Both the position numbers and the translations under genes were made by a program. Shown here in pieces: positions 6,016 through 30,060 of a stretch of 36,552 nt of DNA. Under the pieces are notes generated by a model. The model searched no databases. It was not told the origin of the DNA and saw nothing but the letters and a program-made list of their open reading frames with translations. The DNA comes from Acidimicrobiia bacterium. Lineage in GTDB: Bacteria; Actinomycetota; Acidimicrobiia; Acidimicrobiales; CAIXPF01. How positions within the stretch are numbered: the first letter of the stretch is position 1; the number at the start of each line of letters is the position of its first letter. The DNA lies in assembly GCA_009377505.1 (NCBI GenBank), contig WHTX01000011.1, positions 1 to 36,552 of the forward strand, written 5' to 3'.

Positions 6016-6106
6016 GGCAGCGAACCTGGCGGCGACCGGCGCGGACGTCAACCTCGCCCCTCTGTTGCCGATGCCCGCGAGGATGGCCACACGGGGCACG
6101 CGGCCG

Positions 6107-8796: not shown

Positions 8797-9771
8797 TCAG
8801 GCCTCCCCGATGATGGGCTCGCCAGCGCGGTAGACGGTCACGGGGCCATCGGAGCTGACCACCGCGACGATCGCTTCTGGGTGGTCGAAGCTCCAGCGTT
8901 GGGCGGAGCGGTGTCGCATCCCGTGGTCGTTGCCGACCTGGGCCTCAGCCGTGGCAGTCGAGAGCAGGCCCACGCCGATCGTCTGGATCGCGCCCTGGGT
9001 GTCGATGAGCGTGGCGAGGTCTCGTTGCATCAGGCATGACAACAACGGTGGGAAGTGCCGGCGGTCTGTCAGCGTGAGCGCCGGCGGAGGGACGGCGCCG
9101 GAGGTGTCGAACGAACTGTCCGCAACGCCCCGGTGCACGACGAGCGTGGCACCGGCGCGCGCAGGGGCCAGCCAATGGATGGCCAGCGTCAGCAGCCCGT
9201 GAGCAACGGCGGGCTCCAGTTCAGGGGCTCGCTCCTGCAGGCCGGGTAGCAGGCTGCGAGCGGTTGCCCGGCCGGACCAGGATCGACCGTCCCAGGACAC
9301 GACCTGGTCGTGCTCGAACAGCCGGGTGACACCGAAGACGGGGGTGCGCTGCACGACGAGCGCACCGGTTGCTTCCTGCAGCAGGACGAGGTCGGCTTCG
9401 AACAGGAGGGGCCGATCGAAGCACGCGACGGCGATCCGCTCGGGATCGGCGGGGTTGCGGACGAGGTAGCAGGCGCGGCCATCTGCGAAGCTGCGTGCGT
9501 CCTCGAGGTTGCAGCTTGCGTCGACGACGTCGACGCCGACGTCGGACCAGGACTGCAGGTTCTCCGGGGCGGTGGTGATCATGGCGCCGTAGACGGGCCG
9601 TCGACCCTCGAACATGGGGGTCCGCCGGGCGTAGTCGAGCTCTTCGACGACGACCGAACCGGTGGCGTCGTCCCCGGGCAGGCCGATGCGGTCGTCTTCG
9701 AGCTCCTCCGCCAAGCGCCGCTGGGACCGGCTGGTGCGGTCGGCGTCTGTCATCGCGGCGATCGTACCCAT
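8797..9771 (-). CDS. DisA_N/DAC-domain (diadenylate cyclase-like) protein with altered DGA motif
   Basis: A 324-aa protein. Its C-terminal part (from about residue 235) is a DAC domain: LLSCLMQRDLATLIDTQGAIQTIGVG, then GNDHGMRHRSAQ and AIVAVVSSDGPVTVYRAGEP. DAC enzymes make cyclic di-AMP from two ATP using a DGA motif and an RHR motif. Here RHR is intact (R286-R288), but the Asp of DGA is Gln (Q259-G-A), with an Asp two residues earlier (D257). The first ~235 residues (RPVYGAMITTAPENLQSW, CYLVRNPADPERIAVACFD) look like a separate sensory domain I do not recognise. No membrane segment. ATG 9753 is an alternative start. It may be a catalytically altered or inactive nucleotide sensor; that is inference. 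Confidence 0.75.
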   Translation of the reverse strand: MGTIAAMTDADRTSRSQRRLAEELEDDRIGLPGDDATGSVVVEELDYARRTPMFEGRRPVYGAMITTAPENLQSWSDVGVDVVDASCNLEDARSFADGRACYLVRNPADPERIAVACFDRPLLFEADLVLLQEATGALVVQRTPVFGVTRLFEHDQVVSWDGRSWSGRATARSLLPGLQERAPELEPAVAHGLLTLAIHWLAPARAGATLVVHRGVADSSFDTSGAVPPPALTLTDRRHFPPLLSCLMQRDLATLIDTQGAIQTIGVGLLSTATAEAQVGNDHGMRHRSAQRWSFDHPEAIVAVVSSDGPVTVYRAGEPIIGEA

Positions 9772-13098: not shown

Positions 13099-13119
13099 GG
13101 GGAACGAGGGATGTTCCCC
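13099..13119. promoter_or_regulatory. Inverted repeat GGGGAAC-N7-GTTCCCC
   Basis: A perfect 7-bp inverted repeat with a 7-nt spacer. It covers the first possible ATG (13111) of the SARP gene, so it is either an operator, which would favour a later start (13144 or 13156), or a hairpin over the start codon. Confidence 0.5.
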
Positions 13120-14433
13120 ATCCGCCGTGCGCGCCCGCTCGCCATGCTGGCCTGCATGCCGCCAGGTGTGGTCCGCACCTCCAAGCCCGCGGCTCGCGTC
13201 GAGCTCGGGCTGCTGGGGCCGCTCTCCGTCTGCGTCGAGGGGCGCCCGACCGCGGTGCCGGGTCGTCTCGCCCGGGCGTTGCTCGCCATCCTCGCGCTCG
13301 ACACCGGACGGTCCCTGTCCGTCGCCGCCATCATCGAGCGCCTGTGGGACGAGCCCCCGACGAGCGCGAGGAACACGCTGCAGACCTATGTGGCGCACCT
13401 CCGGCGGGTGCTCGAACCATGGCGGGCGCCAGGTGGCCCGAACGCCGTCCTCGAGACGGCGGGCGACGGCTACCGTCTCGTTGGTTCCGCCGTGGCCGTC
13501 GACGTGGCGGACTTCGAGGAGCTCATGGTCGCGGCTCGAACCGCCGACGAACCGGCCGAGCAGCTGGCGACGGCCGAAACGGCGCTGGCGTTGTGGCGGG
13601 GGGAACCCCTCGCCGACCTCGGCCCCGTGCGCTACGCCCACGGCGAACGGGCGCGCCTCGGCGAGCTCGAACGCGATGCGCATCAGTTGCGGGCGGAGGC
13701 GCTCATGGCCCTCGGCCATTCCCATGCGGCGATCGCCGCCGCCGACGCCGCACTCGGCGCGAACCCCTACGACGAGGCCATGTGGGGCCTCGGCATCCTC
13801 GCCCGCTACCGGGCGGGCCGGCCCGCCGATGCATTGGCCGCCTACCACCGGGCACGCGACGTCCTCGCCACCGACCTGGGGCTCGAGCCGTCAGCCCCCC
13901 TGCGGGCGCTCGAGGCTGCCGTGCTCGCCCACGACCCGACCTTGCTCCCCGGCCCCGAGCGCCCGCCGCGTGCGACCGCCAGGCCGACCTGTCGGTCAGC
14001 CCCCCTCAGGGTCGTCGTCGGGGAGGACGACCTCCTCGTGCGCGAGGGGCTGCTGCGGTTGCTCGCCCGCTCCGGCGACGTCACCGTCGTTGCGGCGACG
14101 GCGACCTACGACGAGGCCCTCGACGCCGTCGAGCGTCACCGACCGGACGTGCTGATGACCGACATCAGGATGCCCCCACACCAACGTGACGAAGGCATCC
14201 GCATCGCCGGCGAGCTGCGCGTGCGCCGACCCGACGTCGGAGTGGTCCTGCTCTCCCAGCTCGCCGACCCGCACTACGCACGTCAGGTGTTCATGCCCAC
14301 GGCGACCCGGCGCGGCTACCTCCTCAAGGAGCACGTCGGGCGACCGGACCAGTTGCTCACCGCGCTGCTGACCGTGGCGATCGTCGACCTCCTGGTCACT
14401 TCCGGTGAAGGCGAGGGCCGGCACCGGCCATGA
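13111..14433 (+). CDS. SARP-BTAD transcription factor fused to a C-terminal receiver domain
   Basis: A 440-aa regulator. An OmpR-type winged helix (LGLLGPLSVCVEG to RLWDEPPTSARNTLQTYVAHLRRVL) is followed by a BTAD helical repeat domain (ALWRGEPLADLG to LARYRAGRPADALAAYHRARDVLATDLGLEP). After a Pro/Arg linker comes a receiver domain: VVVGEDDLLVREGLL (acidic pocket), VLMTDIRMPP (phospho-acceptor Asp), VVLLSQ (Ser) and YLLKEHVG (Lys). The receiver resembles NarL-type regulators, but the LuxR helix-turn-helix that should follow is missing, so DNA output is at the N-terminus. ATG 13111 overlaps an inverted repeat; 13144 and 13156 are alternatives. The stop overlaps the kinase start (ATGA), so the kinase is the likely phosphodonor. 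Confidence 0.87.
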   Translation: MFPIRRARPLAMLACMPPGVVRTSKPAARVELGLLGPLSVCVEGRPTAVPGRLARALLAILALDTGRSLSVAAIIERLWDEPPTSARNTLQTYVAHLRRVLEPWRAPGGPNAVLETAGDGYRLVGSAVAVDVADFEELMVAARTADEPAEQLATAETALALWRGEPLADLGPVRYAHGERARLGELERDAHQLRAEALMALGHSHAAIAAADAALGANPYDEAMWGLGILARYRAGRPADALAAYHRARDVLATDLGLEPSAPLRALEAAVLAHDPTLLPGPERPPRATARPTCRSAPLRVVVGEDDLLVREGLLRLLARSGDVTVVAATATYDEALDAVERHRPDVLMTDIRMPPHQRDEGIRIAGELRVRRPDVGVVLLSQLADPHYARQVFMPTATRRGYLLKEHVGRPDQLLTALLTVAIVDLLVTSGEGEGRHRP

Positions 14434-15635
14434 GCGCCGAGGTGCGCCGCCACCCGATCGAGACGTTCCTCCGCTACGACCAGGCCACCTGCGGCTTGGG
14501 GGTCGCGGCGCTGTTGGCCGTCCACGTTTTCCTCGCCCCCCATCCGTTGCTGGTGGTCGAAGCCGTGGCCGTGGCCGTGGGCGGCGCGGCCCTGGGGGCG
14601 GCGCGGCGGCCGTTGGGGCGCGACGACCCCGCCCGGGCCGTCTCCGTCATCGCTGTCGTGAGCTGGCTCACCCTGCTGGCCCCCGCTGCCGTCACCCCCT
14701 TCGTCGAACCCGTCCTCGTCGTCGCCGCCTTGCTGCCCGTCGTGTTGGCGATCCCCTACGTGAGCCCACGCCACCTGGCCGTGCTCGTGGTCGGCTCGAC
14801 GAGCGTGGCCGGGGCCGTGGCCGTCATCACCGCCGGGGCGGGGGGCGGTGTCATGGACCAACTGCCAGGCTGGCTCCCCACCGTGGTCGTCGCCGCCTTC
14901 CTCCCTGCGGCGACCGGGATGATCGGGCTTCTCAGCGGTCACAACCACCAGGCGATGGCAGCCAGCCGGGCACGGCTGGTCGCCAGCACGGACCAGGCTC
15001 GGCGCGGGATCGAACGTGACTTGCACGACGGCGCCCAGCAGCGGCTCGTGTCGGTGGCCATGCAGCTGGGGCTGGCGAGGTCGCTCGTGGAGGAGGACCC
15101 CGACGGGGCCGTCGAGCTGCTGGCGGACCTGGAAGCGCAGGCGCACCTCGCCCTTGCGGAGCTGCGGGACCTCTGCCTCGGTGTCTACCCCGCTGCGCTC
15201 ACGGACTTCGGCCTCGCCGCGGCGCTGACGGCCGCGGCGCGGCCGCACGGGCGACGATGCCGGCTCGAGATGTGCGACGTCGGCCGGCTCCCCGAGGCCA
15301 CCGAGAGCGCCGTCTACTTCTCCTGCCTCGAGGCGCTGCAGAACGCGGTGAAGCACGCCGGGCCCGACGCGGTCATCACCATCCGCTGCGAGCGGACCCG
15401 ACCCGACCGGCTGCGCTTCTCCGTGCGCGACGACGGGGCCGGCTTCGACCCGACCCGGGCCCGAGCCGGCGCCGGGCTGGCCAACATCGCCGACCGGGTC
15501 AGCGCGATGGGAGGCAACGCCCGCATCACCTCGGCCCCCGGGCACGGGACCTGCGTCGCTGGCGAGGTCCCGCTGCCCCAGCGCGGCCGGCCCCACGGCG
15601 CCGGCGCGGTCATCGCTGGCGAAGCGCAGACGTGA
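14430..15635 (+). CDS. NarL-family sensor histidine kinase (HisKA_3/HATPase_c)
   Basis: A 401-aa membrane kinase. The N-terminal half has about five or six hydrophobic segments (for example LGVAALLAVHVFLA and VLVVAALLPVVLAIPYV) and no large extracellular domain. The HisKA_3 dimerisation motif RRGIERDLHDGAQQRL holds the phospho-His near residue 200. The ATPase domain shows EALQNAVKHAG (N box), VRDDGAGFDP (G1) and GAGLANIADRVSAMGG (G2). It overlaps the SARP-receiver gene by 4 nt and should phosphorylate it. The signal is unknown; the compact sensor suggests a membrane or envelope cue. The stop overlaps a further small frame (GTGA). Confidence 0.9.
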   Translation: MSAEVRRHPIETFLRYDQATCGLGVAALLAVHVFLAPHPLLVVEAVAVAVGGAALGAARRPLGRDDPARAVSVIAVVSWLTLLAPAAVTPFVEPVLVVAALLPVVLAIPYVSPRHLAVLVVGSTSVAGAVAVITAGAGGGVMDQLPGWLPTVVVAAFLPAATGMIGLLSGHNHQAMAASRARLVASTDQARRGIERDLHDGAQQRLVSVAMQLGLARSLVEEDPDGAVELLADLEAQAHLALAELRDLCLGVYPAALTDFGLAAALTAAARPHGRRCRLEMCDVGRLPEATESAVYFSCLEALQNAVKHAGPDAVITIRCERTRPDRLRFSVRDDGAGFDPTRARAGAGLANIADRVSAMGGNARITSAPGHGTCVAGEVPLPQRGRPHGAGAVIAGEAQT

Positions 15636-16333: not shown

Positions 16334-17896
16334 TCAGCCGCAGCGGGAGCCGGCCTGGTCCCAGGCGCACAGGGGTGTGCGGCCGGGCAGGTCGGCGATG
16401 CTGTCCTGCACCCAGGTCTGCTGCTCGGCGTCCCAGTACGAGACGTCGGAGCCCTCCACGAGGTAGGCGTCCTCGTTGCCGTCCATGTTGAAGGTGATAC
16501 CGGGCAGCAGCATCGGGTGGGTCATCTCCAGGCTGCGCAGCGCCAGGATGAGGTTCGTGCGGGTCAGGCCGCCGTCGAGTTGGCCGGCGATCTGGAGCGC
16601 CTGGCTCAGGGCCCAGCTGTAGTACAGGCCGAGGTTGTACGACGGCGTGAGCTCGTAGCCAGCCTCGTCGATGAACTCCCGGGCAGCGACGATGAACGGG
16701 TCGTCGTCGTACTCTTCGGTCAGCGCGTCCTTGAGGCCACCGCCCACGCTCCACCAGCCGTCGGAGTCCTCGCCGACCACGTCCCGGGTCACCGGCCCGG
16801 TCGCCTTGCACGCCGAGCTCATGAACTTGTAGTCGACGCTCTCCTTCATGCCGTTCAACGCCGACTCGGTCACGAACTGCGTGCACGTCGACCCGGTGCT
16901 CATGCCGATGAACACGTCGGGGTCCTCGGCGGCGAGGGTCGTCATCTCGTCCTTCAGCGTCGCCGCCGCGGGCTCGAAGGACTCGGAGACGTACTCGATG
17001 TCGTCCTTGCGGGGGGAGTCGGCGAAGTACGCCTCGAGGGCGGCGTGGTACGAGGCGCCGAAGTCGTTGTTCATCCGCAGGCTCGCCACCTTGGCCTTCC
17101 CGCCGAGCTCGTCGAGGTGCTGCTCGACGAAGACGCCCCAGATGACCGCCTCGGTCGAGTAAGAGATCGAGCTCGCCGTCGTCCACGGGTGGTTGACCGG
17201 GTCGCCGAAGGCAGGGTGGCCGGACGCCACGAGGGGCTGGGGGATGCAACGCTCGTTGAGCTTGTCGTAGGTGCGCAACGTGCTCGGCGTGCCCAACGTC
17301 TCCACAGCGAAGACCTTCTCGGAGTCGATGAGCTCGTCGACGAGGGGGATCGTGCGGGCCGGGTCGTAGGCGTCGTCCCGCAGTAGCATCCTCACCTGGC
17401 GGGTCTTGTCGTTGACGTCGGTGTAGACGCCCTGCTCGTTGTAGTGGCGGAACAACGCGTCGTGCGCCCGGCCGATGCCGCCGGCCTCGGCGTTCGGGCC
17501 CGACTGGGCGACGGGGTAGCCGATCTTCACCTCGGTGTCGGTCATGCCCTCGGTGTCGCTCCAGCTCGCAGGGCACCGGGCGAGGTCGATCGTGAAGCCG
17601 CCCGGCCCGACGAGCTGGGAACCGTCCTCCTTCACGCCCCAGCCGTTCTCCTGGATGCGGGCGACGACGGCGGCGCGCTCTTCGGCCCACAGCGCCTCCC
17701 ACCCCTCCATCGAGGTGGGCTGGTCGGCGGGCCCGTCGCCTGCCGTGGTGGCCGGGGCCGCGGTGCTGGCCGGCGCCGCCGTGGTGGCCGTCTGCGCCGT
17801 CGTGCTCGCGCTGTCGTCGGTCCCGTCCGAGCTGCACGCCGTGACACCGATGAGGCCCAGCACGAGCGCGCCGCAGCCAAGGACACGTGTCCTCAT
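16334..17896 (-). CDS. Branched-chain-type ABC substrate-binding lipoprotein (paralog 1)
   Basis: A 520-aa lipoprotein: signal MRTRVLGCGALVLGLIGVTAC (lipobox VTAC), a Ser/Thr/Ala linker, then an unusual segment (SMEGWEALWAEERAAVVARI, NGWG, GFTIDLARCPASWSDTEG). A type-I periplasmic-binding fold (Peripla_BP_6) follows: VKIGYPVAQSGPNAEAGG, RMLLRDDAYDPARTIPLVDELI, TLGTPSTLRTYDKLNERCIPQ, NHPWTT, then YNLGLYYSWALSQALQ. The C-terminus (QTWVQDSIADLPGRTPLCAWDQAGSRC) has a paired Cys. It is larger than LivJ/LivK because of the N-terminal addition. GGGGAG before ATG 17896 supports the start. No permease gene is adjacent; it probably feeds a HAAT transporter elsewhere. Close paralog of the protein at 19161-20705. 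Confidence 0.9.
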   Translation of the reverse strand: MRTRVLGCGALVLGLIGVTACSSDGTDDSASTTAQTATTAAPASTAAPATTAGDGPADQPTSMEGWEALWAEERAAVVARIQENGWGVKEDGSQLVGPGGFTIDLARCPASWSDTEGMTDTEVKIGYPVAQSGPNAEAGGIGRAHDALFRHYNEQGVYTDVNDKTRQVRMLLRDDAYDPARTIPLVDELIDSEKVFAVETLGTPSTLRTYDKLNERCIPQPLVASGHPAFGDPVNHPWTTASSISYSTEAVIWGVFVEQHLDELGGKAKVASLRMNNDFGASYHAALEAYFADSPRKDDIEYVSESFEPAAATLKDEMTTLAAEDPDVFIGMSTGSTCTQFVTESALNGMKESVDYKFMSSACKATGPVTRDVVGEDSDGWWSVGGGLKDALTEEYDDDPFIVAAREFIDEAGYELTPSYNLGLYYSWALSQALQIAGQLDGGLTRTNLILALRSLEMTHPMLLPGITFNMDGNEDAYLVEGSDVSYWDAEQQTWVQDSIADLPGRTPLCAWDQAGSRCG

Positions 17897-17907
17897 GACG
17901 TTCTCCC

Positions 17908-17942
17908 CTGCAGGCCCGTCGTGGGGGGGGTACGGCCTGCAG
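17908..17942. promoter_or_regulatory. 9-bp inverted repeat next to the SBP1 ribosome site
   Basis: CTGCAGGCC (17908-17916) and GGCCTGCAG (17934-17942) with a 17-nt spacer. On the minus strand the second arm runs directly into the GGGGAG ribosome site of SBP1, so a leader hairpin or an operator could control it. Confidence 0.5.
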
Positions 17943-17985
17943 AGCGGGGACCCTACAACTCGCCGAACCGCCATTCACGTCACCT

Positions 17986-17998
17986 TGACATACTGTCA
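17986..17998. promoter_or_regulatory. Palindrome TGACA-TAC-TGTCA
   Basis: A perfect 5-3-5 inverted repeat of the size bound by TetR- or GntR-type dimers, midway in the divergent promoter. On the plus strand it also contains TTGACA, a consensus -35 hexamer. Confidence 0.5.
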
Positions 17999-18169
17999 GC
18001 GCCACCTGCCGGGCCGGGCGCGATGCGGAGGTAGGGTTCGCCGGCGTGCCTCGGCCTCGGCCTCGGGGTGGGATGCTTGCCCTGATCTTTTCATGAGGCT
18101 CGCGGCCAGGCCCCTGACCAGGACGGCAGCTGGCCCGGGCGAGCGATGCGGGCAATTGCCTGACCAGCT

Positions 18170-18183
18170 CGAGCGAGCTCGAA
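18170..18183. promoter_or_regulatory. Palindrome TCGAGC-GA-GCTCGA
   Basis: A perfect 6-2-6 inverted repeat 45 bp before the LLM oxidoreductase start. A possible operator for that gene. Confidence 0.4.
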
Positions 18184-18227
18184 TGAAAGATTGGGGCTTG
18201 GAGTGACGTCAGCGACCTGGGGGGACC

Positions 18228-19148
18228 ATGCGCGATCAGTCGGACGGTGTCGAGTTCGGGCTCTCGATGCGCTTGTTGAAGGAGGTCCGGGCCGAGGCGC
18301 ACCTCGCCGAGTCGCTCGGGTTCGACTATCTGCTCACGGGTGAGCACATCAGTTTCCACGGGCCGACGCCGAACACGCTGATCTCGTTGTCGGCGGCTGC
18401 TGCGGTCACCGAGCGGATCCGGTTGCTGAGCGGCATCGTGCTGGTGCCGCTCTACCCGCCAGCGCTGCTCGCCAAGCTCATCGCCACGCTCGACGTGATC
18501 AGCCACGGCCGGTACTGCTTCGGCATCGGCATCGGTGGTGAGAACCCCCGGGAGTTCGACGCGGTCGGCGTGCCCGTCAAGGAACGCGGCGCCCGCACGA
18601 ACGAGGCGCTCGAGGTGATCGACCGCCTGCTGACCGAGGACAAGGTCTCCTTCGAGGGCCGCTTCACCTCGCTGTCCGGCATCACGATCGCCCCCAGGTC
18701 CAAGGAGCGGCCGCCCTTCTGGGTCTCGGGCCGCAAGGAAGGCGCGATGCAACGCGCCGCCCGCTACGGCGACGCCTGGATGCCCTACATGTACACACCG
18801 GAGATGCTGGCCGACTCGATGGCGAAGATCGCCGCGTTCACCGAGGACGCCGGCCGACCGGCGGGATCAGTTCGGGGCGCGGCGTTCGCGTTCACATGCG
18901 TGCACGAGGACCGCGACACAGCACTGCAGATGGCCAACAAGGTGCTGTCCACCACCTACAACCAGGACTTCACCGACCTCGTCGGCAAGTACGCGATCGC
19001 CGGCTCCCCCGACGTGTGCCGAGCGCGCATCCAGGATTACATCGACGCCGGCGCTCGCACGGTCATCTTCGCCCAGGGCTGCCCGGCCGGCTACATCTCC
19101 GAGAACGCCCGCCTGCTGGCCGAGGAGGTCATGCCTGCCTTCAGGTGA
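18228..19148 (+). CDS. LLM-class (luciferase-like) F420/flavin-dependent oxidoreductase
   Basis: A 306-aa TIM-barrel enzyme of the bacterial luciferase superfamily: VEFGLSMRLLKEVRAEAHLAESLGFDYLLTGEHI (strand 1/helix 1 with the 'GEH' motif), ERIRLLSGIVLVPLYPPALLAKLIATLDVISHGRYCFGIGIGG (the classic LLM core), FEGRFTSL, PFWVSGRKEGAMQRAARYGDAWMPY and a C-terminal AIAGSPDVCRARIQDYIDAGARTVIF. The 'ATLD-xSxGR-xxFGIGxG' pattern favours F420-dependent members in actinobacteria. Start ATG 18228 follows GGGGG. It sits between two substrate-binding paralogs, suggesting catabolism of the imported compound. Its 3' end is only 12 bp from the converging SBP2 stop. Confidence 0.9.
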   Translation: MRDQSDGVEFGLSMRLLKEVRAEAHLAESLGFDYLLTGEHISFHGPTPNTLISLSAAAAVTERIRLLSGIVLVPLYPPALLAKLIATLDVISHGRYCFGIGIGGENPREFDAVGVPVKERGARTNEALEVIDRLLTEDKVSFEGRFTSLSGITIAPRSKERPPFWVSGRKEGAMQRAARYGDAWMPYMYTPEMLADSMAKIAAFTEDAGRPAGSVRGAAFAFTCVHEDRDTALQMANKVLSTTYNQDFTDLVGKYAIAGSPDVCRARIQDYIDAGARTVIFAQGCPAGYISENARLLAEEVMPAFR

Positions 19149-19160
19149 GCCCGCACCGGC

Positions 19161-20705
19161 TCAGCGGCAGCGCGCCTCGGACTGGTCCCAGGCGCAGTTG
19201 GGGGTCTGCACGTCGAGCTCGACGATGCTGTCCTGCACCCAGGCCTGCTCGTCGGTGCTCCAGTACGAGATGTCGGAGCCCTCGAGCATGAAGGCGTCGG
19301 CGTTGCCGTCCATCTTGACCTTCAGGCCCCCGACCAGCATCGGGTTCGTCATGTCGATGCTGCGCAGCGCCAGGATCAGGTTGCTGCGGGTGAGGCCGCC
19401 GTCGAGCTGACCGGCGATCTGCAGGCCCTGGGCCAGCGTCCAACCGTAGTAGAGGCCGAGGTTGTAGGACTGGCTCACCTCACGGTCGATATCGGCGACC
19501 CACTGGCGGGCGGCCACCGCGAAGGGATCGTCGTCGTAGGCCTCGACGTCTACGTCCTTGAGGGCGCCTCCGACGGTCCACCAGCCGTCGGAGGCGTCGC
19601 CGAGGTCCTGGACCGGGGTCGTGACCTTGCACGCCGAGCTGAGGAACTTGTAGGGCACGTCCTCCTTCATGCCGTTGATCGCCGCCTCGCTGACCATCTG
19701 GCTGCAGGACGACCCCGTCGTCATGGCGATGAACATGTCGGGCGACCCGGCGGCGAGGGTGGTCATCTCGTCCTTCACCGTCGCCGCCGTCGGCTCGATC
19801 GTCTCCGAGACGTACTCGATGTCGTCCTTGTGCTCGGAGGTCTCGAGGTAGGCGGTCAGCGCAGCGTGGTAGGAGGCGCCGAAGTCGCTGTTGATGCGCA
19901 GCGCGGCGATCTTGGCCTGGCCGCCGAGCTCGTCGAGGCGCTCCTCGAGGAAGGTGCCCCACAGGACGGCTTCGGTGGCGTAGTTGATCGAGCTGGTCGT
20001 GGTCCACGGGTGGTTGACCGGGTCGCCGAACGCCGGGTGCCCGCTCCCCGGCAGGACCTGGGGGATGCAGCGCTGGTTCAGCTTCTCGTAGGTGCGCAGG
20101 GTGCTGGGCGAGCCGGTCGTCTCGATGGCGAAGACCCGTTCGGAGTCGATCAGCTCGTCGACGAGGGGGATCGTGCGGGCCGCGTCGTAGGCGTCGTCGC
20201 GCAGGAACATCGTGACGTTGCGGGTCTTGCCGTTGACGTCGGTGAACGCGCCTTGCGCGTTGTAGTGGGCGAAGAGCGCCTCCTGGGAGTAGCCGAGGCC
20301 GCCCGACTCGGCCGCCGGGCCCGACTGTGGCAGCGGATAGCCGATCTTGATCTCCGTGTCGGTCAGCCCCTCGGTGTCGCTCCAGCCGGCGGCGCAGGCG
20401 GACAGGTCGATGGTGAAGCCCTCGGGCCCCGTCAGCTGCGTCCCGTCGGCCGACTTGCCCCAGCCGTTCTCCTCGATCCGAGCGACGACGGCGGCCCGCT
20501 CCTCGGCCCAGAGCGCCTCCCACGCCTCCATGGAGGCTGGCCCGTCGTTCGTCCCGCCCACACCGGCGGCGGTCGACGACGTCGAGTCCACCTTCCCTGC
20601 GCTGGTCGCCGCGCCTCCGGACGTTTCGCTGTCGTCACCGCCGCACGCCGTGGCGGCGCTGACGGCGGCCACGAGCACGACTGCGGCCAAGGTGCGCGAG
20701 ACCAT
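19161..20705 (-). CDS. Branched-chain-type ABC substrate-binding lipoprotein (paralog 2)
   Basis: A 514-aa lipoprotein: signal MVSRTLAAVVLVAAVSAATAC (lipobox ATAC) and a low-complexity linker, then the same N-terminal addition as paralog 1 (SMEAWEALWAEERAAVVARI, NGWG, GFTIDLSACAAGWSDTEG). The Peripla_BP_6 fold follows (IKIGYPLPQSGPAAESGG, TGSPSTLRTYEKLNQRCIPQ, NHPWTT, YNLGLYYGWTLAQGLQIAGQLDGGLTRSNLIL). Both proteins end in a WVQDSI motif followed by CAWDQ and RC. GGGGAGG before ATG 20705 sets the start. The two probably arose by duplication and bind related ligands. Divergent from the Baeyer-Villiger-type monooxygenase gene. Confidence 0.9.
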   Translation of the reverse strand: MVSRTLAAVVLVAAVSAATACGGDDSETSGGAATSAGKVDSTSSTAAGVGGTNDGPASMEAWEALWAEERAAVVARIEENGWGKSADGTQLTGPEGFTIDLSACAAGWSDTEGLTDTEIKIGYPLPQSGPAAESGGLGYSQEALFAHYNAQGAFTDVNGKTRNVTMFLRDDAYDAARTIPLVDELIDSERVFAIETTGSPSTLRTYEKLNQRCIPQVLPGSGHPAFGDPVNHPWTTTSSINYATEAVLWGTFLEERLDELGGQAKIAALRINSDFGASYHAALTAYLETSEHKDDIEYVSETIEPTAATVKDEMTTLAAGSPDMFIAMTTGSSCSQMVSEAAINGMKEDVPYKFLSSACKVTTPVQDLGDASDGWWTVGGALKDVDVEAYDDDPFAVAARQWVADIDREVSQSYNLGLYYGWTLAQGLQIAGQLDGGLTRSNLILALRSIDMTNPMLVGGLKVKMDGNADAFMLEGSDISYWSTDEQAWVQDSIVELDVQTPNCAWDQSEARCR

Positions 20706-20734
20706 CGGTCCTCCCCCGAGGGCGGGCTGTCTCA

Positions 20735-20761
20735 GGTGCGATCGCCCCCGACGATCGCACC
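20735..20761. promoter_or_regulatory. 10-bp inverted repeat upstream of SBP2
   Basis: GGTGCGATCG (20735-20744), 7-nt spacer, CGATCGCACC (20752-20761): perfect arms, 30 bp before the SBP2 ATG, within the divergent promoter shared with the monooxygenase gene. An operator or a leader hairpin. Confidence 0.55.
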
Positions 20762-20898
20762 GGCCCGGACGGCCCCGGACCCTAGTGCCATGCCCACCAA
20801 CGTTCGCCGCGTTCAGGCCGCGCGCGGGGCGCCTGCCGGCCCGCGCCACGCGACCCGCTCGCCGCCATGTCCCTGCGCGCGCGAGGATCAGAGGAGAA

Positions 20899-22866
20899 AT
20901 GAGCGCCGATTCAACCTCCGAGGGGGAACCCGTGGCCCACACGACGGCATCCGGAGCAGACGAGCAGCAGTTCACCGATGCGGTGGCCAGCGCCAACATC
21001 CCGACGCTGCTGATGGTGCTCGTCCAGCTCACGGGCGAGCTCCACTGGCTCGAGGAGCCGTACCGGCCGAAGCGCCAGTCGGGCATGGGCGACAACGACA
21101 GCGGAGGGCTCGCCCCCGAGCACCAGGCCGAGGTCCGCGACGCGGCCCTCGAGGCGATCCTCGCTTGGCGGGCCGGGCGGCCGGTGGCCATCTCCGAGCC
21201 CTCCGAGGAGCTGCTGGTCAAGATGCTCAGCGTCGCCATGGGCGAGCGGGTGCCCGAGGAGTACGGGTCCTTCACCGCCGCCCAGCTCGGCACGAAGTCG
21301 CTGCTGGCCGAGCCGATCGCCGTGCCCGAGGGCTTCAAGGTCCTGGTCATCGGCGCCGGCGTGTCCGGCATCTGCACGGCCGTCAACCTGCAGGCCGCCG
21401 GCGTGCCCTTCGAGATCATCGAGCGCAACCCCGAGGTCGGCGGCGTCTGGTGGGAGAACAAGTACCCGGGCGCCGGCGTCGACACGCCGAACCACCTCTA
21501 CTCGTTCTCCTTCGCCGAGTACGACTGGAACGCGTACTTCTGCCTGCGCGACGAGCTGCACGGCTACCTCGAGCACGTCGCCGACCACTTCGACCTGCGC
21601 AAGTACATCACCTTCGACACCGCGGTCGAGCGCATCACCTACCACGAGGCCGCCCAGTCCTGGTCGGTGGAGACGCGTGACGCGAAGGGCAACGCCGAGG
21701 TACGCGAGGCCACCGCCGTGATCAGCGCGGCGGGGCTCTTCAACCCTCCGGTCGAGCCGAACATCCCCGGCCTCGACAGCTGGGCCGGCGACCGGTGGCA
21801 CTCCGCCCGCTGGCCCGACGACAAGAGCATCGCCGGCAAGCGGGTGGCGATCATCGGCAACGGCGCCAGCTGCATGCAGATCGCCCCGGAGATCCAGGAC
21901 GACGTCGAGTCGCTCACCATCTACCAGCGGTCGAACCACTGGGCGGCACCCTTCGAGCAGTTCCGCAAGCCGGTGCCCGACGCCCTGCGCTTCCTGTTCC
22001 GCGAGTGCCCGCTGTACCGCGCCTGGTACCGGGTTCGCCTGGGGTGGACGTTCAACGACCGCATCCACTCGGCCTTGCACAAGGACCCGAACTGGGAGCA
22101 CCCGGAGCGCTCGCTCAACGCCCAGAACGATGCCCACCGGGCCTACTTCACCAAGTACGTCACCGAGGAGCTGGGCGACAAGGCCGACGAGCTGCTGCCC
22201 AAGGTGCTGCCCACCTACCCGCCCTTCGGCAAGCGCATGCTCATGGACAACGGCTGGTACCGCATGCTGCGCAACCCGAAGGTCGAGCTGGTCGACGACC
22301 GCATCGACCACATCGAGCCGAACCGCATCGTCACCGTCGACGGCATCCCCCGCGAGGCCGAGACGCTCGTGCTCGCCACCGGGTTCGACGTGCTCCGGGT
22401 CGTCAACACCTACGAGACGGTCGGCCGCGACGGGCAGACCCTGCGCGAGGCGTGGGAGGACGACAATGCCCAGGCCTACATGGGCACCGTGGTCCCGGGC
22501 TTCCCGAACTACTTCGTGCTCTACGGCCCCAACCTGCAGCCCGGCCACGGCGGCAGCCTCATCTTCGTGGTCGAGATGCAGGTGCGCTACATCATGGACA
22601 TGCTGGCCAAGATGGCCGACCAGGGCCTGGGCGCGGTCGAGGTCCGCGAGGACGTGTGCCGACGGTACAACGAGGTCGTCGACGCCGAGCACGAGAACAT
22701 GGTGTGGACCCACCCCGGCATGTCGACCTACTACCGCAACGACCGCGGCCGCATCGTGATCAACTCGCCGTTCCGCAACGTCGACTTCTTCGACATGACC
22801 CGTGAGGTCGACCTCGACGAGTACGACATCGAGCCCCAGCGGCAGGCCGAGCTCGTCGCCGACTGA
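20899..22866 (+). CDS. Baeyer-Villiger-type flavin monooxygenase (HapE-like, with N-terminal extension)
   Basis: A 655-aa flavoprotein. Residues 1-145 form an N-terminal helical extension (ANIPTLLMVLVQLTGELHWL, MGERVPEEYG), as found in 4-hydroxyacetophenone-type monooxygenases. Then KVLVIGAGVSGICTAVNLQ binds FAD (about 150) and GGVWWENKYPGAGVDTPNHLYSFSF is the BVMO loop. GDRWHSARWP (about 295-305) is the BVMO fingerprint GxxxHxxxWP, preceded by W instead of F. RVAIIGNGASCMQIAPEI binds NADPH, and ETLVLATGFDVL is the second dinucleotide-linked motif. It should insert oxygen next to a ketone. A GAGGAG site precedes ATG 20899. It is divergent from SBP2 and ends at a strong terminator. Confidence 0.9.
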   Translation: MSADSTSEGEPVAHTTASGADEQQFTDAVASANIPTLLMVLVQLTGELHWLEEPYRPKRQSGMGDNDSGGLAPEHQAEVRDAALEAILAWRAGRPVAISEPSEELLVKMLSVAMGERVPEEYGSFTAAQLGTKSLLAEPIAVPEGFKVLVIGAGVSGICTAVNLQAAGVPFEIIERNPEVGGVWWENKYPGAGVDTPNHLYSFSFAEYDWNAYFCLRDELHGYLEHVADHFDLRKYITFDTAVERITYHEAAQSWSVETRDAKGNAEVREATAVISAAGLFNPPVEPNIPGLDSWAGDRWHSARWPDDKSIAGKRVAIIGNGASCMQIAPEIQDDVESLTIYQRSNHWAAPFEQFRKPVPDALRFLFRECPLYRAWYRVRLGWTFNDRIHSALHKDPNWEHPERSLNAQNDAHRAYFTKYVTEELGDKADELLPKVLPTYPPFGKRMLMDNGWYRMLRNPKVELVDDRIDHIEPNRIVTVDGIPREAETLVLATGFDVLRVVNTYETVGRDGQTLREAWEDDNAQAYMGTVVPGFPNYFVLYGPNLQPGHGGSLIFVVEMQVRYIMDMLAKMADQGLGAVEVREDVCRRYNEVVDAEHENMVWTHPGMSTYYRNDRGRIVINSPFRNVDFFDMTREVDLDEYDIEPQRQAELVAD

Positions 22867-24478: not shown

Positions 24479-25819
24479 ATGCAGATCGTGTATTTTACCG
24501 AGCGCCCGTACCGCGGTATCGAGGAACGCGAGATCTTAAGGAACCGTGCTTTCTTCGGCACCTCCAACAGGCTCTTTGACCACATCAAGGGGTCTCGCCT
24601 CTACAATTACTACTTCGACGAGATGCTCTACGCCGAGGCGCTCGGCTTCGACGGCATCGCCCTCAACGAGCACCATGGCACGCCGTTTTGCATGGGCGGT
24701 GTGATGAACCTCGAAGCGGCGATCCTCGCCCGCATCACCACCACGGCGAAGATCGTGCTCATCGGCAACGCGCTGCCGAGCAAGAACCCACTGCGGATGG
24801 CGGAGGAGCTCGCGACCATCGACCTAATCTCCGAGGGAAGGTTGATTTCGGGATGGGTCAGGGGTTCGGGCTCCGAGCAGTTCTTCAACAACATCAACCC
24901 GGCCCTTAACCGGGAGATGTTCGAGGAGGCGCATGACATAATCGTCCAGGCGTGGTCGCGTCCCGGACCTTGGCGATATGAGGGCAAGCACTACCACTTT
25001 CGCATGGTCAACCCTTGGACGCTGCCCTACCAGAAGCCCCACCCGCCGATGTGGATCCCGGGGCTGTTGAGCCCCGAGACGATCGCCTGGGCGGCGGAGC
25101 GCGCCTACCCCTACGTCGGCCTCGGCACGGCGCTCTCGATGACCTGCGACATGTACGACATGTATGCGGACGTCGCCGCCAAGTTCGGCTACCAGGCGGG
25201 CTCGGAGAACTTCGGCTACCTCGTACCCGTCGTCGTGGCCGACACCGAGGAGCAAGCACAGGAGGTGGGCGCGGGGTTCGTATGGGGTGGCGGCGGCGGG
25301 GCATTCTCGCGCCCCGAGCACACCCTGCCGGCCGGCTACAACTCGAAGACCGCGATCCGGCGACTGGCGACCCAGCCCGGAGGGACCTGGCTAGGTGTCA
25401 GTCGTGACCGGCTCCGGGAGCAGCTGACCGATAGCCGCGCCACCAGCGAGGTCGATGAGGCCGCGATCAAGGCGCGCCTGCAGAGCGGCTACCTGAAGCA
25501 GCAGGCCAACTACCAGCTGGTGGTGGGCACGCCGGACTCCGTCCTGCCGAAGATCCGGACGATCCTCGAAGTGCTGCGGCCCGGCGCCCTCATCATGTTC
25601 GCCGTCCAGGGCGGCGAAGTGTCTGACGCCGACCGGATGCGCAGCCTGCAGCTCACCGGTGAGGTGGTGCTCCCCGAGGTGCGGACCATCGCGTCCGAGC
25701 TCGGGCTCGCCGACGGCTCCGAGCGCGCTCCGGGCTCGGTGAAGCTCCGCCCCGGCGACTCCCGTCATGCCGTCGTCGACCGAGAGCGCCTTGCCGCTGC
25801 GGAGATCCCGCAATCGTGA
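24479..25819 (+). CDS. LLM-class flavin-dependent oxidoreductase (luciferase-like)
   Basis: A 446-aa luciferase-superfamily protein: MQIVYFTERPYRGIEERE, YAEALGFDGIALNEHHGTPF (the 'NEHH' motif), AAILARITTTAKIVLIGNALPSKNPLRMAEELATIDLISEGRLISGWVRGSG (LLM core), NREMFEEAHDIIVQAW, PPMWIPGLLSPETIAWAAERAYPYVGLGT, and a long C-terminus with VVGTPDSVLPKIRTILEVLRPG. The 'EHH' class is usually FMN-dependent and two-component. ATG 24479 matches the family start; the open frame upstream is unrelated sequence. The first ~170 codons include rare TTA, AGG, CTA and ATA codons, unlike its neighbours. It precedes the SBP/ligase/liv operon by 85 bp and may be part of the same pathway. Confidence 0.88.
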   Translation: MQIVYFTERPYRGIEEREILRNRAFFGTSNRLFDHIKGSRLYNYYFDEMLYAEALGFDGIALNEHHGTPFCMGGVMNLEAAILARITTTAKIVLIGNALPSKNPLRMAEELATIDLISEGRLISGWVRGSGSEQFFNNINPALNREMFEEAHDIIVQAWSRPGPWRYEGKHYHFRMVNPWTLPYQKPHPPMWIPGLLSPETIAWAAERAYPYVGLGTALSMTCDMYDMYADVAAKFGYQAGSENFGYLVPVVVADTEEQAQEVGAGFVWGGGGGAFSRPEHTLPAGYNSKTAIRRLATQPGGTWLGVSRDRLREQLTDSRATSEVDEAAIKARLQSGYLKQQANYQLVVGTPDSVLPKIRTILEVLRPGALIMFAVQGGEVSDADRMRSLQLTGEVVLPEVRTIASELGLADGSERAPGSVKLRPGDSRHAVVDRERLAAAEIPQS

Positions 25820-25904: not shown

Positions 25905-27209
25905 ATGTTGAGCGAGACACGTGGTTCTGATCTCGATGACGCTGCCAGGCGCCGCGCGCGGCGCAGCTGGCGATGGGCCGGCGTGATGGTCGCCGGCGCT
26001 CTCGCGGCCGCGGCCTGCGGAGGTGACGATTCCGGCTCGTCGAGCAGCGACACGACGGCGGGCGGTGCAGGCGCCACCTCGGCCGGAGGAGAGACCACCG
26101 CCAGCGGTGACCCGTTCGTGATGGGCTGGATCGACTCCCAGACTGGCCCGGCGGGCCCGGGCTACCTCGCCACCGGTCTGGCCGGCTTGCAGACCTACGT
26201 GGATGGCCTCAACGCTCGCGGCGGGGTGTCCGGCCGACCGGTCGAGCTCGACGTTGTCGACGACCGCACCGATCCCTCGGCCGCCGTGACGGGCTTCCGT
26301 CAGCTCGCGGGCGGAGACAGCCTCGCCATCTTCGGCTCCTCCGTCAGCTCGCACGCCGCAGCCCAGGCACCTCTGGCCGAGGAGCTCGGCGTCGCCCTTG
26401 TCGCCGGCGGGGTACCGGACGCGCTCGTCTACCCGCCCCAGAGCTTCTTCTTCGCCTCGAACCTCGCCCACACCGCCTCGGCCCAGGTGCAGCTGGACTT
26501 CGCCGAGGGCCTCATGGAGGAGGAGGGCATCGACGCGCCGAAGGTAGCCATGTTCACGGTGGACACCGCCGCGTCCAAGGAGTTCCGCGAGTACGTCTCC
26601 TCGAAGTTGCAGGACATGGGTTGGACCGAGGTCGACGACCAGGTCTACACGATCGGCGACACGGACTTCTCCGCCCAGATGGCCTCGATCGCCCGCGCTG
26701 AGCCCGACGTCGTTCTGACGCTCGTGGGTAGCACCGATGTGCCGCCCTTCGTCGGCCAGCTCCGCCAGCGGGGCATGGACAAGCCGATCATCAACACCTA
26801 CGCCGGCTCCGATGAGCCGGCCTTCGAACAGGTCAATGACGCGGACTTCTACGCCCCGCGCTCGTTCGTCTGGCCCACGGACGAGGTGGCGTCCGAGATG
26901 GCCGCCCAGGCGGAGGAGAGCGGCCTCGCCGACGAGATGGTGAGTACCTACTTCACCCGTGGCTACGTACTCGGCCAGCTGATTGAGGAGGCGCTGGTGG
27001 CCTGCGGCGAGGGCTGCGACCGCGCCGGGTTCCGTGACGCGCTCGAGACCATCACCGAGCTCGACACGGGCGGCTTGTCCGGCCCCCTCAGCTTCGGCCC
27101 CGAGGACCACCAGCTGGTCTCAAGCGCCCAGATGTTCATCTGGGACCCAGAGGAGGGCCACACCGCGCCGGTGTCGGACTGGATCGATGCCGAGGCCGCG
27201 AGCCGGTGA
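25905..27209 (+). CDS. ABC transporter substrate-binding lipoprotein (HAAT/Liv type)
   Basis: A 434-aa protein. It has an Arg-rich N-terminus, a signal segment WAGVMVAGALAAAACGG (lipobox AAAC), a Ser/Gly/Thr linker, then a Peripla_BP_6 fold: FVMGWIDSQTGPAGPGYLATGLAGLQTYVDGLNARGGVSGRPVEL, DRTDPSAAVTGFRQL, FGSSVSSHAAAQAPLAEELGV, PKVAMFTVDTAASKEF, DTDFSAQMASIARAEPDVVLTLV. A Cys pair (ACGEGC) lies near the end. It lacks the N-terminal addition of the two SBPs at 16-20 kb. GGGGGGAAGCG precedes ATG 25905. It is the first gene of the liv operon, and its stop overlaps the ligase start (GTGA), so it is the receptor for the LivHMFG complex encoded below. Confidence 0.9.
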   Translation: MLSETRGSDLDDAARRRARRSWRWAGVMVAGALAAAACGGDDSGSSSSDTTAGGAGATSAGGETTASGDPFVMGWIDSQTGPAGPGYLATGLAGLQTYVDGLNARGGVSGRPVELDVVDDRTDPSAAVTGFRQLAGGDSLAIFGSSVSSHAAAQAPLAEELGVALVAGGVPDALVYPPQSFFFASNLAHTASAQVQLDFAEGLMEEEGIDAPKVAMFTVDTAASKEFREYVSSKLQDMGWTEVDDQVYTIGDTDFSAQMASIARAEPDVVLTLVGSTDVPPFVGQLRQRGMDKPIINTYAGSDEPAFEQVNDADFYAPRSFVWPTDEVASEMAAQAEESGLADEMVSTYFTRGYVLGQLIEEALVACGEGCDRAGFRDALETITELDTGGLSGPLSFGPEDHQLVSSAQMFIWDPEEGHTAPVSDWIDAEAASR

Positions 27210-29182
27210 GCATGGACGGGAGCGGGCCGGGCGACCCGTCGGCAGCCATCGGCGCAGGGGCGACCGCATTGAGCGGGCGCCCGGGCAGAGGCCGGGCAGC
27301 TACGGCGGGGGGCGCCCAGCCGACTTGGGCAGGTCCGGCGGTGCTGGCGGCGACGCCCCTCGTCCGACACTTTCTGGACCGTACGCACGGGTCTGGAGGG
27401 GACGTCGCCTTCCGCTACAAGGACCTCGGCATCTGGCAGGACGTGACGTGGTCGGTCTACCGGCGTTGCGTCGAGCGGTTCGCCCTCGGGCTCTCCGCCC
27501 TCGGTGTGAAGCGCGGCGACCGGGTGGCCATCATGGCCGACGTCCGGCCGGAGTGGCTCTACGCCGATGTTGCGGTCCAGTCCCTCGGTGCGCTCACGGT
27601 GGGTGTCTACCCCACCGCCCCGCCGGCCGAGCTGGCCCACGTCCTCGCGGACAGCGGGTCCCGGGCCTTCATCGCCGGTGACCAGGAGGCGGTGGACCAC
27701 CTGGCCGAGGCTGGCTACGGCGCCCTCGAGCATGTCGTCGTCATCGACGCCCGAGGCGTCGAGGGGTACGAGGACGTCTGCATCTCGAGTTACGCCGACG
27801 TGGAGAACGTCGGCGACGCCGCCGCCAACCGTGACGGCACCGGTTGGGAACAGATCGCATCCCAGGCAGGGCCGGACGACGCCGTCGGTGTGTTCTACAC
27901 CGTTGGCTCGACCGGCCCTCCCAAGGGCGTCGTCTTGTCGTCCCGCAACCTCGTGCTGTCCTGGGCTGCGTCCGTCACGTCGGCGAGAAGCTCCATGCGC
28001 GCGGAGCGCACCGTGTCCCATCTCCCGCTCGCCTACGTGGCCGAGCGCCAGCTGATCGTCCACGACCCCATCCTCCACGGCAGCATCGCCCACCTTCCCG
28101 AGGACGCCGAGACGGCCAGGCAGGCGATCATCGAGGTCCGGCCGACGCTGGCCATTGGGCCCCCCGGGGAATGGGCCGCGGCCGCCCGGCAGGTGGCTGT
28201 GGGAATGGAACGGAGCGGTCGGCTCGAGCGGGCGGTCTACCGCCTCGGCATGCGCGCCCGGCGCCGAGACGTGAACAGGCGGTGGCACGGAGCGAACCCC
28301 TCTCCGCCCAGCCGGCTAGCCTCCTGGGCCGCCTACTGGGTGGTGTGCCGGCCCGTCCTCGACAAGTTCGGGTACTCACGGCTCGATCGGGTCTTCGCGG
28401 TCGGTGCGCCGCTGCCCACCGAGGTCGCCGAGCGCTGGGAGCTCTGGGGGGTGCGGCTGGTCGAGGCGTACCTTCTGACCGAGGCCGCGGGGATCGTGGC
28501 CCTCCAGCGCTCGCCGACCTCGCCGCCGGGGGCACCACTCGACGTTCTCGCCGGGATCGAGGCCCGCGCCGCGCCCGATGGTGAGCTGCTGCTGCGGGGC
28601 CCCAACCTCTTCGAGGCCTACCGCGGGCCCGGCCGCGCTGTCGACGAAGAGGGCTGGTTCGCCACGGGCGACGAGGCCGAACTCATGGCCGATGGGTGCC
28701 TCCGTGTCCGGGACCGCAAGGGCGACGTGATGGAGATCGGCGGGCACCGCGTCTCGGCCAATGACGTTGAGGTCGTCCTGCGGTCGAGCCCGTTCATTCG
28801 TGAAGCGGTCGCCTGCGGAGACGGACGCGACCAAGTGAGCGCCCTCGTCGAGGTGGACGTCCGTGCGACCGCCGAGTGGGCCCGCGGGCGGGGCATCACC
28901 TTCTCGAGCTACGGAGGCCTCGTGGCGAACGCATCGGTGCAGCAGCTCGTCGGCGAGGAGATCGTGCGGCTCAACACCGTGCTTGCTGAGCGCGCCCTGC
29001 CGCCGGTCGCCGCCCACCGCCCCTTCCCCCACCAGCTCGACCCTGCCGCGGGCGACGAGGTGACGGCCACCAGGACGATCAAGCGCCACTCGATCACGAG
29101 GAAGTACATGGCACTCATCGACGACATGTACGCGACCGCCGCAGCCGGCCCCGCGGGCCGCGCAGGAGGAGGGCGAGGATGA
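27206..29182 (+). CDS. AMP-forming acyl-CoA synthetase (long-chain type)
   Basis: A 658-aa ANL-superfamily ligase that activates a carboxylic acid to its CoA thioester. Motifs: FYTVGSTGPPKGVVLSSRN (ATP loop, about 229-247; the usual SGTTG is VGSTG), YLLTEAAG (about 421-428), GWFATGDEAEL (about 482), DRKGDVMEIGGHRVSANDVE and TRTIKRHSI, whose Lys is the probable A10 catalytic residue. The wide gap between A3 and A5 is typical of long-chain FadD15-like members. A 50-residue Gly/Ala-rich N-terminal tail precedes the domain. GTG 27206 overlaps the SBP stop; ATG 27212 is an alternative. Its place inside a liv operon implies that the imported substrate is an acid (inference). Confidence 0.88.
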   Translation: MSMDGSGPGDPSAAIGAGATALSGRPGRGRAATAGGAQPTWAGPAVLAATPLVRHFLDRTHGSGGDVAFRYKDLGIWQDVTWSVYRRCVERFALGLSALGVKRGDRVAIMADVRPEWLYADVAVQSLGALTVGVYPTAPPAELAHVLADSGSRAFIAGDQEAVDHLAEAGYGALEHVVVIDARGVEGYEDVCISSYADVENVGDAAANRDGTGWEQIASQAGPDDAVGVFYTVGSTGPPKGVVLSSRNLVLSWAASVTSARSSMRAERTVSHLPLAYVAERQLIVHDPILHGSIAHLPEDAETARQAIIEVRPTLAIGPPGEWAAAARQVAVGMERSGRLERAVYRLGMRARRRDVNRRWHGANPSPPSRLASWAAYWVVCRPVLDKFGYSRLDRVFAVGAPLPTEVAERWELWGVRLVEAYLLTEAAGIVALQRSPTSPPGAPLDVLAGIEARAAPDGELLLRGPNLFEAYRGPGRAVDEEGWFATGDEAELMADGCLRVRDRKGDVMEIGGHRVSANDVEVVLRSSPFIREAVACGDGRDQVSALVEVDVRATAEWARGRGITFSSYGGLVANASVQQLVGEEIVRLNTVLAERALPPVAAHRPFPHQLDPAAGDEVTATRTIKRHSITRKYMALIDDMYATAAAGPAGRAGGGRG

Positions 29183-30060
29183 GCTTCGACGTGCTGCCCG
29201 ACGTGCTCGTGAGCTCGATCGTGCTTGCCAGCACCTATGCCCTCGTGGCCCTCGGCTGGGTGTTCATCTTCCGGGCGACCGGCATCCTGAACTTCGCCAC
29301 CGGCCAGTTCCTTGTTCTCGGCGCGTACTTCTTCTTCTGGACATCGATCCAGTTGGAGCTACCGTTCTGGTTGGCGCTGCCCATCGCGCTGCTCATGATC
29401 GCCGCTCTCGGCGCCCTCGTCTACCTCGGGACGCTGCGGCCCCTGGCAGGCCAACCGATGTTCTCGCCCATCATGGTCACGCTCGGTTTGTCGATCATCA
29501 TGACGAGCGCGATGACCATCATATGGGGAGCCCAATCGCGGGTGCTCACACCCCCCATGGACAACAACACCTACCAACTGCCGGGCGATGCCGTCATCAC
29601 GACCTTCGGCATCATAACCATAGCCGTCGCCCTCATGGTCTATGGCGCGCTGATGTCCTTCCTGCGCTTGTCCAAGCGCGGCATCCAGATGCGCGCCACC
29701 GCCGAGAACCCGCTGCTCGCCAGCCAGCGCGGCATCAACGTCGACGTGATCTTCGTGATCGCCTTCGCCGTGGCCGTGAGCGCGGCGGCGCTCGCCGGGC
29801 TCAGCTACTCCTTCTCGAACATCCTGGCCCCCTCGGCCGTGGCCCTCGGCCTCCGCGGGCTCGCGCCTGCCCTCATCGGGGGCATGGACAGCATCGGCGG
29901 TGCCCTCATCGGCTCGGTCGTCGTCGCTTTCATCGAGACCGCCGCGGTGACCCAGTGGGGGGGCGACATCAAGGACATGGCCGCGTTCCTGGTGCTCCTC
30001 GTCGCCCTCGCCGTGCGGCCCTATGGGCTCTTCGGCACACCCGAGATCCGGAGGGTTTGA
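29179..30060 (+). CDS. livH: LivH-type ABC permease
   Basis: A 293-aa membrane protein with about eight helices: VSSIVLASTYALVALGWVFIFRATGILNFATGQFLVLGAY, the signature N-terminus of LivH (helix followed by 'GxxNFAxGxFxxLGAY'), then LPIALLMIAALGALVYLGTLRPL, IIMTSAMTIIWGAQ, and the EAA-like loop GLRGLAPALIGGMDSIGGALIGSVVV near the C-terminus that docks on the ATPases. ATG 29179 overlaps the ligase stop (ATGA). It forms the channel together with LivM. Confidence 0.93.
   Translation: MSFDVLPDVLVSSIVLASTYALVALGWVFIFRATGILNFATGQFLVLGAYFFFWTSIQLELPFWLALPIALLMIAALGALVYLGTLRPLAGQPMFSPIMVTLGLSIIMTSAMTIIWGAQSRVLTPPMDNNTYQLPGDAVITTFGIITIAVALMVYGALMSFLRLSKRGIQMRATAENPLLASQRGINVDVIFVIAFAVAVSAAALAGLSYSFSNILAPSAVALGLRGLAPALIGGMDSIGGALIGSVVVAFIETAAVTQWGGDIKDMAAFLVLLVALAVRPYGLFGTPEIRRV

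Follow-up and report, generated by a model that had tools for sequence, protein, structure and literature searches.

A family of orphan Liv-type binding lipoproteins in Acidimicrobiales and a candidate shared importer

Which importer is served by a binding lipoprotein whose gene has no permease beside it? The question is raised by two genes, S1 and S2, in a 36,552-nucleotide stretch of DNA (here, the window) from G000, an Acidimicrobiales metagenome-assembled genome (MAG) of 5.35 Mb in 494 contigs, 92% complete with 5.5% contamination. Both genes encode enlarged substrate-binding proteins (SBPs); the gene for a luciferase-like monooxygenase (LLM) class oxidoreductase lies between them, and that for a Baeyer-Villiger monooxygenase (BVMO) lies past S2. 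We use the name SBPx for the enlarged SBP family that includes S1 and S2. We consider it somewhat probable that the two are members of a set of about 40 Liv/HAAT lipoproteins that share one distant hub importer, each with a ligand of its own. The genes concerned, with the parts of S1, are as follows.

16334-17896, minus strand: S1, orphan SBPx lipoprotein, 520 aa (PF13458, lipobox, family signature)
Within S1: lipobox Cys C21; N-terminal helix 62-83; Peripla_BP_6 core about 122-460; C-terminal Cys tail 510-519
17897-18227: 331-bp spacer separating the divergent S1 and LLM genes
18228-19148, plus strand: LLM-class F420-dependent oxidoreductase, TIGR03619 family, 306 aa (profile match)
19161-20705, minus strand: S2, orphan SBPx lipoprotein, 514 aa, lipobox ATAC (PF13458, family signature)
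20706-20898: 193-bp spacer separating the divergent S2 and BVMO genes
20899-22866, plus strand: type I BVMO, 655 aa, with an N-terminal extension of about 140 residues (homology, fingerprint)

The SBPx family

A preliminary description, made from the DNA letters alone, had placed two enlarged SBP lipoproteins, an interleaved LLM gene and a BVMO gene at these positions, and profiles and homology confirmed them all. Translation of S1 from the ATG at 17896 gives the lipobox VTAC, ending in C21; a longer frame of 546 aa opens upstream at 17974. S1 and S2 are 66% identical. In a Pfam scan both matched PF13458 (Peripla_BP_6) alone, with 70.8 and 84.5 bits, respectively, against a cut-off of 31.7; there was no match to TctC (PF03401), so the scan places neither protein in the TctC/Bug family. 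Because the PF13458 match is confined to the middle of each protein, the additions of ~110 residues at the N terminus and ~55 residues at the C terminus are real. The LLM gene scores above the TIGR03619 cut-off (175.3 versus 166.9 bits) and is convergent with S2, 12 bp away. As the preliminary description had noted, no permease is found among the immediate neighbours of S1 or S2, and neither gene has the permease and ATPase company of the canonical LivKHMGF operon. Farther out the picture is different, in that a complete classic Liv operon lies 5 kb past S2 (25986-32866, plus strand), comprising a classic SBP, an AMP-ligase, LivH, LivM and two ATPases. The lack of an adjacent permease could be explained more generally if a distant hub is shared.

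With S1 as the query, G000 gave 42 matches; in the loci retrieved, 39 of these code for 250 aa or more. Permeases adjoin only two of the 39, the copies in the hub operon described below; S1, S2 and about 35 others are without them. All six genomes of G000's own family (f1, G000-G005) are positive: at E≤1e-60 their matches number 39, 21, 11, 10, 7 and 4. At the same threshold, 30 of 397 sampled genomes of the order had an SBPx match; in a separate sample of 397 genomes of the phylum, just five reached E≤1e-35. Tested genomes of sister families mostly hold 1-6 SBPx at E≤1e-50, while G722 (f18) has 15, several of which are fragments. A single-protein scan of genome contigs returned only four loci, all in one MAG. 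Strain mixing is unlikely to account for the copy number, given that the G000 copies mostly have 46-79% identity to S1 and that 7-11 copies are present in each of the cleaner assemblies, G002-G004.

Nearly all full-length copies carry an N-terminal WExLWAxER helix, seven cysteines and a C-terminal C-[AS]-[WF]-D...C motif. The signature positions (C21, C108, W112, C217, C338, C363, C510, C519 and others) are at least 97% invariant and are common to hub and orphan SBPx. S1 and S2 have an export signal with a lipid-anchor site (VTAC and ATAC, ending in C21), and the lipobox Cys is kept in at least 97% of the f1 SBPx that cover that position. Thus, the terminal features that the preliminary description had recognized in both paralogs are indeed shared, but they are not specific to the pair: they mark the family of about 40 in G000, and an N-terminal addition peculiar to S1 and S2 was rejected as a candidate. 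Within the otherwise conserved core, positions 223, 224, 242, 422 and 425 are hypervariable, which suggests a cleft that may have diversified. In mapping of the ligand contacts of leucine-binding protein (LBP), the alignment was usable for the N-lobe and unusable for the C-lobe.

Structure prediction had been proposed for the N-terminal addition. In an AlphaFold model of S1 built from six sequences, which was of moderate quality (pLDDT 66.7), the confident parts were helix 63-83 and the greater portion of the two lobes, but not the Cys tail. Foldseek matched this model to Liv-type SBPs, the best being a "fatty acid" SBP from Thermomonospora curvata and, from Rhodopseudomonas palustris, SBPs for aromatic acids (nearest folds PDB 4eyg, 4ey3, 4f8j and 4n03; E about 1e-12). 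A profile search of the PDB gave no match at E 1e-8. The R. palustris and T. curvata proteins differ from S1 in that the matched chains are about 360-390 residues long and mostly 14-20% identical, and their ligands are not transferable to S1; these fold neighbours would fit non-amino-acid ligands without showing them. A further variant is found in G450 (C12; L170 6386-9226), where three CW_binding_2 cell-wall-binding repeats are fused to an SBPx-like domain in a protein of 946 aa, perhaps an SBP anchored to the wall in place of lipid.

The hub operon and the descent of the orphans

In G000 the hub reads LivG-LivF-LivH-LivM-SBPx-SBPx-LivH-LivM (C372:9053-18747). The same locus is present in G001-G004, with one or two SBPx genes and a second LivH that is 67-68% identical to that of G000. 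Additional SBPx loci with doubled permeases occur in four sister families: in G490 (f17); in G565, G585 (cut by the contig end) and G722 (all f18); in G029 (f25, cut); and in G450 (f125). Homologues in ordinary LivGFHM-SBP operons (G007, G010, G011, G024 and G480) are without the N-terminal helix and the Cys tail, and a hairpin with a DLSxCPxxW motif is older. Since helix and tail are missing from these single-permease operons, the added parts correlate with the second permease pair.

About ten Liv loci are present in G000, and the other main ones carry classic SBPs of their own. The 39 SBPx are set against one hub and one stand-alone LivH-type permease, i.e., many binding proteins against few membrane sets. 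The stand-alone permease is a LivH-LivM fusion of 674-754 aa, found once per f1 genome with no SBP or ATPase directly beside it (L126 7824-9968, L127, L128, L129 and L131); the G000 counterpart, on C192, is cut by the contig end. After the G000 hub come genes for a Cys/Met-metabolism pyridoxal phosphate (PLP) enzyme and a CoA_binding_2 protein (L006 13760-15549, G000:C372), and genes of the same size come after the hub in several other f1 genomes.

In trees rooted on outgroup SBPx homologues, the outgroup copies are operon-encoded and the orphans are derived. The orphans form a bushy radiation. Part of it is older than the f1 genera, with orthologous groups across G000-G005, and part is found in G000 alone. 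In G722, four SBPx make up a radiation of their own and four others fall elsewhere on the tree. Orthologous orphans hold the same neighbours across G002, G003 and G004. The dN/dS ratio is 0.06-0.33 for orthologous orphan pairs and 0.13-0.16 for hub SBPx; the former range indicates that the orphans are working genes under purifying selection.

We infer docking of the orphans to the hub LivHM, as we do the ligand class. Each membrane-anchored SBPx would capture its own ligand outside the cell, and the loaded orphan would dock to the shared ABC importer encoded once elsewhere, at the C372 hub, with possible assistance from the one further stand-alone LivH-LivM permease. The orphan genes would have been copied from operon-encoded ancestors and would have settled beside peripheral catabolic genes, the products of which would start catabolism of the imported compound; the window subclade, in particular, would have become linked with one BVMO subfamily. 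A more tentative extension is a "switchboard" ABC importer in which one LivGF pair and two permease pairs (three with the LivH-LivM fusion) might serve up to about 40 receptors, with the N-terminal helix and disulfide tail, found only alongside the second permease pair, as a possible docking code.

Linkage with Baeyer-Villiger monooxygenases

The BVMO gene next to S2 encodes a protein with an FMO-like match, and its best solved relatives are the steroid, phenylacetone and cyclohexanone monooxygenases, which are type I BVMOs. Its fingerprint is WAGDRWHSARWP where FxGxxxHxxxW[PD] is expected, with F changed to W at the first position. S1 and S2 belong to an 8-member SBPx clade with a Shimodaira-Hasegawa-like approximate likelihood ratio (SH-aLRT) support of 99. 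This subclade has five loci in G000: C42 (the window's own), C57 and C260, all with a BVMO within two genes, and C297 and C359. BVMOs make up 3 of the 18 neighbour genes, against 12 FMO-like matches in G000 (P=8e-6), and BVMO adjacency also distinguishes the subclade from the other SBPx inside G000 (P=0.008); these P values are somewhat optimistic because the linkage was noticed after the fact. Independent support for the linkage is provided by the enzymes themselves. The BVMOs at C42, C57 and C260 constitute, together with one on C177, a four-member BVMO subfamily of G000 (SH-aLRT 97), three members of which adjoin subclade SBPx. The divergent SBPx/BVMO arrangement is common to C42 and C57, and at C260 an Abhydrolase_3 esterase gene stands before the BVMO gene, as expected for Baeyer-Villiger catabolism. 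At the fourth BVMO-adjoining subclade locus, C15 of G005, the BVMO is from a different subfamily.

Two local groupings were considered and given up. The nearest relative of S1 is the copy on C359 (79% identity), and S2 groups with the SBPx of G005:C15, likewise beside a BVMO, so S1 and S2 are not a local duplication unit. The preliminary description had made duplicated SBPs around an LLM gene its unit of interest; LLMs near related SBPx are non-orthologous between loci, which disposes of the LLM as a conserved partner, and SBPx-enzyme operons are nearly absent. Its proposal of ketone, terpenoid or sterol scavenging, with phylogeny as the check, fared better in part. It stands for the window subclade, which is repeatedly beside BVMOs (at three of the five G000 loci) and has the esterase at C260, but not for SBPx at large, which have mixed neighbours from many enzyme classes. 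Whether the subclade ligand is tied to a Baeyer-Villiger step, as a ketone or another compound broken down through one, appears to us an even call, and it is not a reading that applies to the whole family.

Of 92 scanned proteins encoded at most two genes away from an SBPx gene of G000, 8 belong to the LLM family of Pfam and 7 to CoA-transferase III, the two commonest families. Next come AMP-ligase, enoyl-CoA hydratase (ECH), major facilitator superfamily (MFS), BVMO-type and other families, and the neighbours also include cytochrome P450, short-chain dehydrogenase/reductase (SDR) and molybdenum cofactor (MoCo) enzymes, ribonucleotide reductase and prephenate dehydratase. Because the family adjoins so many enzyme classes, even housekeeping genes, an enlarged SBP is no marker for ketones or terpenoids. 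LLM genes no more than three genes from SBPx number 15 in G000, versus about 4 expected (P about 8e-6). The genome has a large F420/LLM repertoire, with 118 LLM (PF00296) matches in its 5.35 Mb. SBPx upstream regions, including the S1/LLM spacer, contain no shared 8-mer above shuffles; a palindrome, GTGAC-N4-GTCAC, was tried as a shared operator and rejected as too weak, with 4 copies versus a shuffle maximum of 3.

Alternative explanations and known systems

The remaining window genes that bear on the alternatives are these.

13111-15635, plus strand: regulator with Trans_reg_C and BTAD domains and a C-terminal receiver, its gene overlapping that of a HisKA_3 histidine kinase whose N terminus is multi-transmembrane; the two adjoin S1 in convergent orientation
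24479-25819, plus strand: second LLM, 446 aa, of a different subfamily, before the Liv operon
25986-27209, plus strand: classic Liv-type SBP, not SBPx, of the separate complete Liv operon
29179-30060, plus strand: LivH of that operon
30101-31186, plus strand: LivM of that operon
31290-32060 and 32048-32866, plus strand: two ATPases of that operon
After the operon: a thiolase-like gene

Several points weigh against a shared hub. The G000 assembly is metagenomic and 5.5% contaminated, many of its SBPx genes are located at the ends of contigs, and the genes were called with an in-house codon-model caller. No hub was recovered from G005, a fragmented assembly in which a LivH1-like gene lies on C132. 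Docking is no more than suggested by the conservation of the added parts. The three BVMO loci have unrelated, non-orthologous LLMs. An operon-like, co-directional neighbour is found at just 3 of about 34 SBPx, so the neighbours need not be partners; with housekeeping genes among them as well, the neighbourhood is suggestive and not proof. Lastly, the nearby classic Liv operon could serve S1 and S2. According to this last alternative, S1 and S2 would add specificities for the local LLM/BVMO pathway to the permeases and ATPases encoded 5 kb away (29179-32866). The permease set is complete and on the same contig, and the AMP-ligase and thiolase genes of the region suit CoA-based catabolism. However, a classic SBP from a different subfamily is already encoded in this operon, the operon's LivH is just 30% identical to the hub LivH, and the other subclade loci (C57, C260, C297 and C359) are without such an operon alongside. 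We regard this alternative as unlikely.

It seems similarly improbable that the orphans are sensors or ligand buffers that tune catabolic regulons by presenting ligands to receptors such as membrane kinases. Orphan TctC proteins have been suggested to act in this way (PMC5994714), and a histidine kinase and a BTAD/receiver regulator adjoin S1; yet that kinase is convergent with S1 and 698 bp away, TetR genes are only 3 of the 92 among the nearest two neighbours per side, no kinase family is in the top 25, and sister copies are still inside transporter operons. The family could also be mainly a product of duplication, a set of redundant general scavengers with neighbour associations due to insertion into catabolic islands. 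Few operon-like arrangements and highly mixed neighbours, including ribonucleotide reductase and prephenate dehydratase, agree with redundancy, but purifying selection on orthologous orphans, the retention of their neighbours in G002, G003 and G004 and the linkage to a specific BVMO subfamily do not, and we doubt this explanation as well.

The shared-hub reading has precedents. In the TctC/Bug family, tens to hundreds of orphan SBP paralogues coexist with very few membrane components; Bug orphans adjoin catabolic genes, and TphC works with the distant membrane pair TpiBA (PMC5994714, PMC8556258). SBPx resemble the TctC/Bug proteins of Bordetella, Cupriavidus and Rhodoplanes in having many orphans beside catabolic genes and few membrane sets. 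In contrast, TctC/Bug proteins are PF03401 components of the proteobacterial tripartite tricarboxylate transporters (TTT), whereas SBPx are PF13458 proteins of an ATP-driven Liv importer in Acidimicrobiales and have a lipid anchor, the N-terminal helix and the Cys tail. In Rhizobium leguminosarum, the orphan Liv-type SBP BraC3 functions together with the Bra membrane complex, BraDEFG (PMC2978685). BraC3 is a single, amino-acid-specific orphan, whereas the orphan SBPx number as many as about 40 and the hub has two permease pairs. We know of no enlarged architecture in BraC3. Like the canonical LivK/LivJ HAAT system (LivKHMGF), the hub combines a Peripla_BP_6 core with BPD_transp_2 LivH/LivM and LivG/LivF partners; SBPx differ in being mostly unlinked and about 150 residues longer, and the hub in having two LivHM pairs per LivGF pair.

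Orphan SBP repertoires with a shared membrane hub are thus known in principle, from TctC/Bug and BraC3, and what would be new here is the ABC/Liv class and the doubled permeases; our searches of the open-access literature turned up no description of a comparable expansion of Liv-type SBPs in Acidimicrobiia. Large repertoires of this kind have hitherto been known mainly from proteobacterial TTT systems. If the shared-hub reading is true, binding-protein repertoires can evolve around ABC hubs as well, in an uncultured actinobacterial lineage, and this would account for the many "branched-chain amino acid" SBP annotations expected in Acidimicrobiales. Orphan SBPx might then serve as markers for which catabolic gene set takes up which compound, with the SBPx-BVMO pairs as the first concrete case.

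Two further genes of the window, both on the minus strand, have unrelated domain combinations. The gene at 5212-7449 encodes a methyltransferase domain fused to a DUF3179 domain, and that at 8797-9771 encodes a protein with a DACNK sensor and a DisA-like DAC domain of the c-di-AMP cyclase type.

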